NCBI GenBank assembly: GCA_025358455.1
Contig: JANYJP010000003.1
Location: forward strand, 1 to 64,000
Reading direction: 5' to 3'
Source: Bacteroidales bacterium
GTDB lineage: Bacteria > Bacteroidota > Bacteroidia > Bacteroidales > VadinHA17
Length of the DNA: 64,000 nucleotides
Shown here: positions 26,361-30,528 of the stretch, in pieces
Numbering within the stretch: the stretch's first letter is position 1
Layout of the letters: every line of letters starts with the position of its first letter
The notes under the pieces: model-generated
What the model was told of the DNA's origin: nothing
What the model saw: the letters and a program-made list of their open reading frames with translations, nothing else
Database searches by the model: none
Translations under genes and position numbers: made by a program

Positions 26361-27566
<1,206 letters not shown>

Positions 27567-27821: not shown

Positions 27822-27853
27822 TTTGGAAACTAATAATATGAGGTTTACTTTTG
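27822..27853 (+). promoter_or_regulatory. Bacteroidota promoter of the metal-transport operon
   Basis: TTTG (27822-27825), a 20-base spacer and TACTTTTG (27846-27853) match the consensus exactly. Transcription would start near 27860 and give a leader of about 125 bases. Confidence 0.75.
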
Positions 27854-27879: not shown

Positions 27880-27912
27880 ATGGACGACGACCCGGCGAAT
27901 ATATTAATTTAA
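27880..27912 (+). CDS. Candidate leader peptide MDDDPANILI
   Basis: A ten-codon ORF about 20 bases after the predicted transcription start and 72 bases before the PRC/MgtE_N/CBS gene. Three aspartates followed by proline directly after the start resemble acidic/proline-rich openings that stall or destabilise ribosomes at low magnesium, such as the EPDP stretch in enterobacterial MgtL. No Shine-Dalgarno sequence precedes it, as is usual in this phylum. Coding is unproven: short ORFs arise by chance. Confidence 0.4.
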   Translation: MDDDPANILI

Positions 27913-27951
27913 CCTCTGGTATAGAAGGGTCCCCGGTCGAACTGGCCACTT

Positions 27952-27979
27952 CCTCCTGTATCAGAAACAGATAAGGAGG
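27952..27979 (+). promoter_or_regulatory. Hairpin masking the Shine-Dalgarno sequence
   Basis: CCTCCT pairs with AGGAGG, then one bulged G, then TATC with GATA, around a 7-base loop (AGAAACA). The right arm contains the whole AAGGAGG ribosome-binding site of the gene starting at 27985, so folding should block translation. Upstream, CGACC (27888-27892) and GGTCG (27935-27939) could form a second stem that overlaps the leader ORF. No known riboswitch class was recognised. Confidence 0.65.
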
Positions 27980-27984
27980 TGACA

Positions 27985-29259
27985 ATGACATCACTCACAA
28001 CATTTTATTTAAGCGGAATAATAGGTAAAGAAGCATTTGGCGCTGACGGCGATGCTATTGGTGTGATCAAAGATTTGCTGGTAAATACGGTTCCTTCAGG
28101 ACTAACAGATCCTAATAATCAACTTGTTACTGGCGTCAGGCTGAAGATACACAAAGAAACAAAATTCTATTCCTTTAGTAGTTTCAGGGTTGTAAAGGCA
28201 AGAGAAAAGCTAAATGTAAGCTGCACAGGTTTGGTTGCGCTTGGCAAGGATGATGTCGATAACGGACTATTACTCGTGGAGAATATTCTCGACAAACAGA
28301 TAGTTGACCTTAATGGCCGCAAGCTGGTAAGGGTTAATGATGTGAGACTTGCAACGCTGCCTACAGGAACATTTGCCATAGCTGTTGATATAGGCACTGA
28401 AGGCATTCTGCGAAGGATCGGGATCTCAGTTCCCATAAAAAGTCTTCTTTCTCTTTTCAATGTTAATATAGCTGCAAAATTCATTCTTTGGGATGATGTT
28501 CAGGCAATTGATCATTCAAATTCTAACATAAGGCTTTCTAAGAGTTATTCGAAACTGCATACTTTGCACCCTTCTGATCTTGCTGATATACTTGAAGATC
28601 TGGGTAAAAAATCCAGTATGTCAATATTCTCCTCCCTTGATGAAGAAAAAGCTGCTGATGTTCTCGAAGAACTTGAAACTCATACACAGGTTCATATTGT
28701 TGAAAATATGCCTGTAAACAAAGCAGCTGATGTGCTTGAAAAAATGCCGGCTGATGAGGTGGCAGATATTCTTGATGAACTTGAAGAGGAAAGAGCTGAA
28801 CAGCTTCTTAAAGAGATGGATACTGAGTCATCGCAGGAAGTAAGGGATTTGCTTGAATATGATGATGACCTCGTTGGTAGTATTATGACAACAGATTATC
28901 TGTCATTCAGCGCCTCCAAAACTGTTGAAGAGGTTCTTAAGGAACTAAGACTAAAGAAACCTGAATCTGTAGAGCTTTATAATATGTTTGTTACAGAGTC
29001 AAATGATGAACTTATTGGCACCTTTAACCTGCGCGACCTGGTTGTTGCAGAACCCAATGAAAGTGTTAGCCAGATAATGAAATCTCATCCTCTTTATCTT
29101 TTGGATAATCAGAAAACAGGCGCAATTGCTGAGCTGGTTTCCAAATACAACCTTCTTGCAGTCCCCGTTGTTGATCAGAATAATCTGCTTCAGGGAATGG
29201 TAGTAGTGGATGACGTTGTTGAAGATCTTATTAATAAAAGAAGGACCAAAAAACGATAA
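27985..29259 (+). CDS. PRC-barrel / MgtE N-terminal / CBS-domain protein
   Basis: Soluble protein without membrane helices. Residues about 1-170 hold two PRC-barrel-like units (second begins LNGRKLVRVNDVRL). Residues about 185-285 are MgtE_N helical repeats (LHPSDLADILEDLG, KAADVLEKMPADEVADIL). Residues about 290-420 are a CBS pair (VGSIMTTDYLSFSA; LLAVPVVDQNNLLQG). It is the magnesium-sensing half of MgtE without the channel. The track GTG 27979 is part of the Shine-Dalgarno sequence AAGGAGG; ATG 27985 is the right start. The Nramp gene follows after 12 bases, so it probably gates or senses metal for that transporter. Confidence 0.88.
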   Translation: MTSLTTFYLSGIIGKEAFGADGDAIGVIKDLLVNTVPSGLTDPNNQLVTGVRLKIHKETKFYSFSSFRVVKAREKLNVSCTGLVALGKDDVDNGLLLVENILDKQIVDLNGRKLVRVNDVRLATLPTGTFAIAVDIGTEGILRRIGISVPIKSLLSLFNVNIAAKFILWDDVQAIDHSNSNIRLSKSYSKLHTLHPSDLADILEDLGKKSSMSIFSSLDEEKAADVLEELETHTQVHIVENMPVNKAADVLEKMPADEVADILDELEEERAEQLLKEMDTESSQEVRDLLEYDDDLVGSIMTTDYLSFSASKTVEEVLKELRLKKPESVELYNMFVTESNDELIGTFNLRDLVVAEPNESVSQIMKSHPLYLLDNQKTGAIAELVSKYNLLAVPVVDQNNLLQGMVVVDDVVEDLINKRRTKKR

Positions 29260-29271
29260 CTTTAAGCGCTT

Positions 29272-30528
29272 ATGTTCAGACTTAGACTTAAGGAATCCAA
29301 ATTTCTTAAACAACTGGCTATATTCCTTGCTATTCTCGGTCCGGGAATTATTACAGGAAGTGTTGATAATGATGCAGGTGGTATTACAGTATATTCAGTT
29401 GCTGGTGCAGAATACGGGTACAGTCTTATATGGACCTTAATCCCTTCTTTTATTGTTTTGCTGGTTATCCAGGAAATGAACGCCCGCATGGGTATCGTTA
29501 CAGGTAAAGGCTTATCTGATCTGATACGTGAGAATGCAGGTATGAAAATTACATTTTTTATTTTCATAGGCTTGCTATTTTCAAACATAGGTAATACTAC
29601 AACTGAATTCGCGGGTGTTGCAGGAAGTATGGAGATATTTGGAGTAAGTAAATATATTTCGGTTCCTGTTGCAGCTATACTTGTATGGTTGCTGGTTGTG
29701 AAAGGCACTTATAAGATTGCAGAGCGAATATTTTTGATATTCAGTATGTCATTGCTTACCTACGTGGTATCGGCGCTAATGAGTAAACCTCATTGGTCAG
29801 AAATTGGAAGCTCAATTTTACATCCACAACTTGAAATGAATACACAGAGTCTTGCTATGGTAATTGCTCTTGTCGGAACTACAATTGCTCCGTGGATGCA
29901 GTTTTATATGCAATCTTCTGTAATTGAGAAGGGTCTGAAAATGAAGAACTACAGATACACTGTTATTGATATTACGGTGGGATGCATTGTAACTGTAGTG
30001 GTTGCATTTTTTATTATGGTAGCCTGCGGTTCAACATTGCACCCAAGTGGAATTCTGATAAACGAAGCAAAAGATGCCGCTCTGGCATTAAAACCTTTAG
30101 CAGGTGCACTCGCTTCACAGGTTTTTGCATTTGGTCTTTTTGTTGCGTCTGTTTTCTCTGCCACTATTTTGCCGCTCGCAACTGCTTTCTATGTTTCCGA
30201 AGCATTCGGGTTCGAAGCAGGTATTGATAAGAAATGGGATGAGGCAAAGGAGTTCTATACTTTATATACAGGGATATTGGTTATATCGGCCATTATCATT
30301 CTCATCCCAAATGCACCGCTTATTAAGATTTCAGTCTGGTCGCAGGTAATCAATGGAGTTTTACTTCCGGTTGTGCTGGTAAGCATGATTCTTCTGATTA
30401 ACAATAAAAAGATTATGGGTAACTATGTAAATAACCTCGCACAAAACATTATTGGATGGAGTGCAGTTATTGTTCTTACAGGGTTGTCCCTGATACTTCT
30501 TATTCTGCCTCTGATCAGCAAGCTCTAA
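29272..30528 (+). CDS. Nramp-family divalent metal transporter lacking canonical binding residues
   Basis: Polytopic inner-membrane transporter with about eleven helices. Helix 1 reads GPGIITGSVDNDAGGI (residues 23-38), where canonical Mn/Fe Nramps have DPGN; the asparagine is replaced by glycine. Helix 6 reads TTIAPWMQFYMQSS near residue 206, with alanine where the metal-selecting methionine lies. Such changes are known in Nramp branches that move other ions, including magnesium. Together with the MgtE_N-CBS partner 12 bases upstream this suggests a Mg2+-linked system, an inference. The 418-residue length is normal. Confidence 0.88.
   Translation: MFRLRLKESKFLKQLAIFLAILGPGIITGSVDNDAGGITVYSVAGAEYGYSLIWTLIPSFIVLLVIQEMNARMGIVTGKGLSDLIRENAGMKITFFIFIGLLFSNIGNTTTEFAGVAGSMEIFGVSKYISVPVAAILVWLLVVKGTYKIAERIFLIFSMSLLTYVVSALMSKPHWSEIGSSILHPQLEMNTQSLAMVIALVGTTIAPWMQFYMQSSVIEKGLKMKNYRYTVIDITVGCIVTVVVAFFIMVACGSTLHPSGILINEAKDAALALKPLAGALASQVFAFGLFVASVFSATILPLATAFYVSEAFGFEAGIDKKWDEAKEFYTLYTGILVISAIIILIPNAPLIKISVWSQVINGVLLPVVLVSMILLINNKKIMGNYVNNLAQNIIGWSAVIVLTGLSLILLILPLISKL

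Follow-up and report, generated by a model that had tools for sequence, protein, structure and literature searches.

In the 64,000-nt stretch of Bacteroidales DNA analysed here (hereafter the window), we identify a ten-codon upstream open reading frame (uORF) with an acidic, proline-containing start ahead of an operon for an MgtE-type Mg2+-sensing protein and an NRMT-type transporter, and we consider it likely that this uORF is a cis-acting leader peptide which, together with a translational attenuator, controls Mg2+ uptake through ribosome drop-off at an MD[DE]xP start when Mg2+ is low. What computation shows is the coding start and how it is conserved, the association with three Mg2+-transporter families, and the three-arm switch with its geometry; drop-off of the ribosome and the control of drop-off by Mg2+ are inferred, in the absence of expression or ribosome data. 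A preliminary description of this DNA had read the locus as a possible case of ribosome-based Mg2+ sensing, a proposal now supported by conservation, by occurrence before three transporter families and by a predicted RNA switch, with the drop-off mechanism itself still an inference. As criteria, we asked whether the leader of a Mg2+ transporter holds a short translated ORF, whether the first codons of that ORF specify acids and proline, whether the RNA can adopt alternative structures according to the position at which a ribosome stops, and whether the transporter has NRMT-type ion-site residues.

The uORF (27880–27912, plus strand) reads ATG GAC GAC GAC CCG GCG AAT ATA TTA ATT TAA and encodes MDDDPANILI, from the ATG at 27880 to the TAA ending at 27912, exactly as previously described. 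Promoters of the Bacteroidetes type have the consensus TTTG at −33 and TAnnTTTG at −7, and both elements could be read on the plus strand upstream of the uORF: TTTG at 27822–27825 and, 20 nt further on, the −7 element TACTTTTG (TAnnTTTG) at 27846–27853, the latter also conserved among leaders. In the window this −7 element ends 26 nt 5′ of the uORF ATG, and 68 of the 87 orthologous leaders have an equivalent element 20–30 nt, mostly 25–27, ahead of their uORF ATG, compared to 6.5% in mononucleotide shuffles of the upstream sequence, in agreement with the consensus promoter noted earlier ahead of the ORF. Given the position of the −7 element, transcription probably starts ~20 nt upstream of the uORF, too short a distance to accommodate an aptamer ahead of it. 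The pattern ATGGAYGANNNNCCNGCG occurs only once in the window's own genome, at this very leader. The divergent neighbour (26361–27548, minus strand) is a serine palmitoyltransferase (NCBIfam equivalog, 677.6 bits), as in ordinary Bacteroidota sphingolipid synthesis.

The first gene downstream (27985–29259, plus strand) encodes a protein with Pfam matches to MgtE_N (3.1e-27), CBS (4.7e-14) and the PRC barrel (1e-5), which by domain content is the Mg2+-sensing half of the MgtE channel without its pore. Its start is probably the ATG at 27985, preferred over a GTG at 27979, with the Shine–Dalgarno sequence (SD) AGGAGG at 27974–27979 ahead of it. The second gene (29272–30528, plus strand) encodes an Nramp-related transporter of the NRMT (Mg2+) type (Pfam Nramp, 1.4e-94), whose nearest solved structure is EleNRMT (7QIA; 2e-113, with an alignment spanning 409 residues), the match to MntH reaching only 1.6e-24. 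Its ion-site segments are DNDAGG in TM1 and TTIAPW in TM6, versus DPGN and MPH in canonical Nramp proteins, and NDAGG and TTIAPW are shared with 7QIA, so that the criterion of NRMT-type ion-site residues is met. Judged by its sequence, the second gene product resembles the Mg2+ transporter NRMT far more than the Mn2+-type MntH; Mg2+ transport itself is untested, and the likeness to EleNRMT, the closest solved relative, bears on the regulated gene and not on the leader. A magnesium-sensor-type gene in an MgtE_N/CBS–Nramp operon had been proposed in the preliminary description, and the NRMT-like character of the Nramp protein, together with the occurrence of this leader start before CorA and full-length MgtE genes, makes the link to Mg2+ stronger than was known then. 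The stand-alone MgtE sensing module (MgtE_N and CBS, with a PRC barrel) directly adjoins the Nramp-type transporter gene and, by analogy with MgtE, where MgtE_N/CBS gates the channel, may gate the NRMT. PRC/MgtE_N/CBS and NRMT operons were also encountered in Verrucomicrobia/Akkermansiaceae and Acidobacteria bins (L092, L093, L095, L096 and L112), with NRMT proteins 73–81% identical; neither a leader uORF nor an Rfam riboswitch was found in these five operons, which likely reflect horizontal gene transfer without the regulation, or binning errors.

Upstream regions for comparison were gathered mostly without reference to the leader, by a contig scan with the Nramp protein and by collecting relatives via the MgtE_N protein, and regions found by DNA pattern were also added to the ortholog set. 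This yielded 92 distinct regions, many from metagenome-assembled genomes, of which 87 are from Bacteroidota and the remaining five are the leaderless Verrucomicrobia/Akkermansiaceae and Acidobacteria copies. M-[DE]-[DE]-x-P was found within ~125 nt of the main gene in 80 of the 87 distinct Bacteroidota leaders, the other seven having MDGDP (two), MGEDP, MDADP, MEEGS (two) and, in one, ATA for ATG followed by DDDP. With substitutions mapped on the MgtE_N protein tree, four changes at codon positions 1 and 2, versus 44 at position 3, were counted for codons 2, 3 and 5 (binomial p = 4e-17), and the peptide start is therefore under selection; untranslated sites just 5′ of the uORF each underwent 13–36 changes on the same tree. 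Codons 2–4 specify two acidic residues in 69 leaders and three in 18, never fewer, with at least two persisting even where one of the three has been lost, and Pro5 is found in 85/87 leaders, the two without proline being those with MEEGS. The criterion of early acidic residues and proline is thus met, with at least two acids in 87/87. Conservation is limited to the first 5–6 codons and ends after codon 6, beyond which the tail is variable in sequence and the total length ranges from 9 to 23 codons, indicating selection on the start of the nascent chain and not on the finished peptide. There is, in addition, a preference for GAC as the Asp2 codon (78/87 leaders) and for GCG at codon 6 (most NRMT leaders), beyond what the peptide alone explains; in the window, the stretch concerned is 27883–27897. 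Protein-level conservation of a short ORF with an acidic/proline start in orthologous leaders, proposed earlier as a check, proved clearly positive, and the coding claim, until now unproven, rests on a coding pattern of substitutions across 87 leaders that satisfies the criterion of a short translated ORF, although translation was not measured. The 87 leaders, like the 22 pattern matches described below, share ancestry, and p-values that ignore kinship are overstated. In the leader with ATA in place of the uORF ATG (L024), the DDDP codons are kept, and sequencing error, an unusual start codon or a dying uORF may lie behind this. The Bacteroides luti DSM 26991 leader (L081) has the uORF MDEGPADIFSLLLT, followed by a stop.

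The association with Mg2+ transporters was also evident genome-wide. The blind DNA pattern ATGGAYGANGGNCCNGCG, scanned in 393 Bacteroidales genomes, gave 22 matches versus two for the reversed pattern used as control, and all 22 precede Mg2+-transporter operons, 19 of them MgtE_N/NRMT and three CorA (Pfam CorA 1e-51, 8e-50 and 2e-34). Targeted scans added six CorA and three MgtE genes with an M[DE][DE]xP uORF; for CorA these correspond to 6 of 90 sampled upstream regions, with none on the antisense strand. The uORFs of CorA leaders include MDEGPRYRKIKL, MDEGPYHSRINY, MDDGPYHQQTRVFTCG and MDEVPDYRQIKY, and those of full-length MgtE genes are MDDVPGYIKQVY (L227), MEEDPYRSYSREKETMC (L228) and MDDVPDYHSCNNTREHKQKY (L268), each followed by a stop. 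A looser pattern, ATGGAYGANGTNCCN, was at chance level genome-wide, yet it led to one further MgtE leader. Past the uORF, the RNA of CorA and MgtE leaders has no sequence relationship with that of NRMT leaders, only the peptide start being shared. No M[DE][DE]xP uORF was present at 28 of 30 MgtE genes or at any of the three MgtA-type ATPase genes found, and the leader is therefore not on every Mg2+ gene; the window genome's own CorA (L185, G000:C119) and MgtA-type ATPase (L259, G000:C83) genes both lack it. The strict pattern, applied to 396 genomes from across the class, gave three matches versus three for the control, with no Mg2+-transporter match near any of the three. At the sensitivity of the strict pattern, the motif was thus not seen outside Bacteroidales.

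Between the uORF and the MgtE_N gene, three RNA arms can be delineated on the plus strand. Arm 1 (TCTGGTATAGAAGGG, 27915–27929) is complementary to part of arm 2 (TCCTCCTGTATCAGA, 27951–27965; predicted helix 1:2), and an overlapping part of arm 2 (GGCCACTTCCT, 27944–27954) is complementary to arm 3, which consists of the SD AGGAGG and the bases that follow it (27974–27984; predicted helix 2:3). Arm 2 as a whole spans 27944–27965, and its pairings with arm 1 and with arm 3 are mutually exclusive: the former would free the SD and the latter would mask it. The minimum free energy fold of the window leader is no more stable than that of shuffles (z = −0.10), so that fold stability alone lends no support, and the bistable arrangement was tested separately. 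Because RNAalifold on blind alignments gave a weak consensus or none, the arms were scored leader by leader, against shuffles and against partners slid by 1–3 columns. The three-arm score was 18.0 versus 8.4 in dinucleotide shuffles (p = 5e-39, overstated since the leaders are related), and in the alignment of near relatives helix 1:2 was paired in 79.5% of cells versus 42–49% with slid partners and helix 2:3 in 85.9% versus 33–59%. Compensatory double changes in the two helices showed no excess over the slid controls. Between clades, arms are replaced outright (CTGGTATAGAAGGG, CTGTAAGG, GTTCCGGGAGAAT) with complementarity kept.

The uORF stop tracks arm 1 and not a fixed uORF length, an in-frame stop lying at −12 to +10 nt of the arm-1 start in 60/73 leaders, compared to 42 and 22 for the other frames. 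The front edge of a ribosome lies 16 nt beyond its P site, and when this value was adopted and only RNA past the edge was folded, a ribosome modelled at codon 5 left arm 1 uncovered, while at the stop it lay over this arm. Mean unpaired probability of the SD was 0.31 after abortion at codon 5 versus 0.12 with the ribosome at the stop, and the change followed the predicted direction in 70/79 leaders (p = 1.4e-11), nine running opposite to it and others changing little; in the window leader, it went from 0.57 (codon 5) to 0.05 (stop). Exposure of the SD dropped between edge positions 37 and 46, that is, at arm 1. Shuffling arm 1 abolished the ON state (SD unpaired 0.125) and shuffling arm 2 the OFF state (0.316), while modelled SD exposure in the native ON state is just moderate. 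By prediction, then, the leader has an RNA switch that responds to the position at which the ribosome stopped, and the corresponding criterion is met in so far as prediction against shuffled controls can meet it.

In the mechanism we propose, transcription would start ~20 nt ahead of the uORF and, with enough Mg2+, the whole uORF would be translated, placing the front edge of the stopped ribosome over arm 1; arm 2 would then pair with arm 3 and mask the SD of the MgtE_N/NRMT operon (OFF). At low Mg2+, ribosomes carrying the Met-Asp-Asp/Glu-x-Pro nascent chain would be unstable and drop off near codon 5, and arm 1, left free, would pair with arm 2 and expose the SD (ON). Drop-off at MD[DE]xP is the explanation we favour because methionine followed by two acids and a proline resembles the dissociation-prone sequences of MgtL and mgtQ. 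The EPDP of MgtL causes ribosome dissociation at low Mg2+, and early acidic pairs in E. coli also lead to dissociation, although di-acidic starts do not always destabilise ribosomes (PMC11282234), and Asp2 and Glu5 of Salmonella mgtQ provide a precedent for acid-dependent dissociation (PMC8092293).

MgtL, the mgtA leader peptide of Salmonella and E. coli, is like the window uORF in coming from a short 5′-terminal uORF that precedes a Mg2+ transporter, with acidic residues and proline within its first five codons, and in that aborted translation switches an RNA structure and turns the gene on. It differs in governing Rho-dependent transcription termination, whereas the predicted Bacteroidales switch masks the SD, and in its E2-P3-D4-P5 arrangement, whereas the Bacteroidales acidic pair precedes a single proline; moreover, MgtL is enterobacterial and no homology of peptide, RNA or transporter with the Bacteroidales leader was seen. 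Salmonella mgtQ, an eight-codon ORF between mgtC and mgtB, is a similarly tiny ORF with Asp2, Pro4 and Glu5, whose acids lower mgtQ translation and raise that of the Mg2+ transporter via competing stems at the downstream ribosome-binding site (PMC8092293). mgtQ, however, lies inside its operon with a strong SD of its own, unlike the Bacteroidales uORF, which opens the transcript, and its layout has four arms, with a ribosome on stem 1 favouring ON, whereas a ribosome on the Bacteroidales arm 1 is predicted to favour OFF. The arrangement reported here, with a promoter-proximal uORF and an SD masked by completed translation, differs from both. Shin et al. (2014; PMC4072509) report that the M-box, a Mg2+ riboswitch, governs mgtE–nramp operons in other bacteria. 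These M-box (ykoK) operons are of the same type, with an MgtE-type protein and NRMT under leader-RNA control by Mg2+, but the Bacteroidales leader, ~125 nt long and centred on the uORF, has no M-box match. No RNA or transporter shared between enterobacterial and Bacteroidales leaders is evident, and peptides of this length can neither establish nor rule out common descent; an independent origin of the latter is probable. To our knowledge, a ribosome-based Mg2+ switch of this kind has so far been described solely from enterobacteria; our literature search found no Bacteroidota case, a weak negative as subscription papers lay mostly outside it.

Among other explanations, the one hardest to set aside accepts the leader peptide and three-arm switch as real but takes the signal to be a slowing or arrest of elongation (through the charging of Asp-, Glu- or Pro-tRNA, or through EF-P or ABC-F activity) and not Mg2+. 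A ribosome stalled at codon 5 would free arm 1 just as a dropped one would, so that RNA geometry cannot separate the two, and an influence of EttA on MgtL translation (PMC11282234) also speaks for this reading. We nevertheless regard it as unlikely, since the leader precedes Mg2+ transporters of three families and not amino-acid genes, and has just a single proline codon besides its two or three acidic ones, with exchange of D and E tolerated. In amino-acid attenuators, by contrast, one regulatory codon is repeated in a conserved run. An amino-acid biosynthesis attenuator was rejected on the same count, no run of codons for an amino acid made downstream being present and the downstream genes being those of Mg2+ transporters.

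Far less credible is that the conserved block forms a Mg2+ or Mn2+ aptamer in which the reading frame is incidental. The near invariance of ATGGACGA, with GAC favoured at codon 2 and GCG frequent at codon 6, might suggest as much, but the changes fall at third codon positions (44 versus 4), spellings such as MEEDP, MEEGS, MGEDP, MDGDP and GAT-GAT-GAT exist, CorA and MgtE leaders share the peptide start alone and not the RNA after it, and just ~20 nt separate the transcription start from the ATG; nor was there any Rfam metal-riboswitch match. Known riboswitches (M-box/ykoK and others in Rfam) were sought separately with covariance models and no metal riboswitch was matched in any leader searched, that of the window included, the sole Rfam match being a SAM riboswitch elsewhere in L098. 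We give slightly less weight still to the uORF encoding a small functional protein, or acting by translational coupling alone without sensing anything: it is indeed a coding sequence, but one conserved only in its first 5–6 codons, with a variable tail, a stop that follows arm 1 instead of a fixed length, and no overlap with the main gene. Ten codons are few, and one such locus alone could arise by chance, yet a meaningless ORF is already refuted by conservation and coding signal in 87 leaders and by 22 blind matches that all lie at Mg2+-transporter operons.

Mg2+ sensing through destabilisation of ribosomes by acidic nascent chains has rested on a few enterobacterial leaders. On balance, though with less assurance than we attach to the attenuator itself, we lean towards the view that Bacteroidales independently evolved a ribosome-based Mg2+ sensor of general use, conserved solely in the nascent start Met-(Asp/Glu)-(Asp/Glu)-x-Pro and reused before NRMT, CorA and MgtE in combination with RNA switches of common layout but differing sequence. 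If so, the Mg2+-dependent instability that acidic nascent chains impose on ribosomes would be a signal of wide use and no enterobacterial peculiarity. Finding the same peptide logic in a second lineage, combined with other RNA and other transporters, would demonstrate that the sensor is the ribosome itself. It would also supply a natural series of peptides (DD, DE or EE, then x and P) defining the trigger, and would identify how Mg2+ probably controls uptake in a major bacterial group of gut and environment whose searched leaders lack an M-box. The generality of nascent-chain Mg2+ sensing then becomes a question for a simple reporter test.

Some CorA leaders show further variations. In the L122, L126, L129 and L224 operons a small ORF lies between the leader and corA, which starts ~260–300 nt after the uORF start, and in L129 this small ORF, MLNKIKRSKKGLLITCTLLMCYAMYFHFHPPQ followed by a stop, is directly behind the leader. 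In another CorA leader (L206), the hairpin formed by arms 2 and 3 has a T run behind it (AAGCCTCC...GGAGGCTTTTTTT), which hints that its OFF state might also end transcription.
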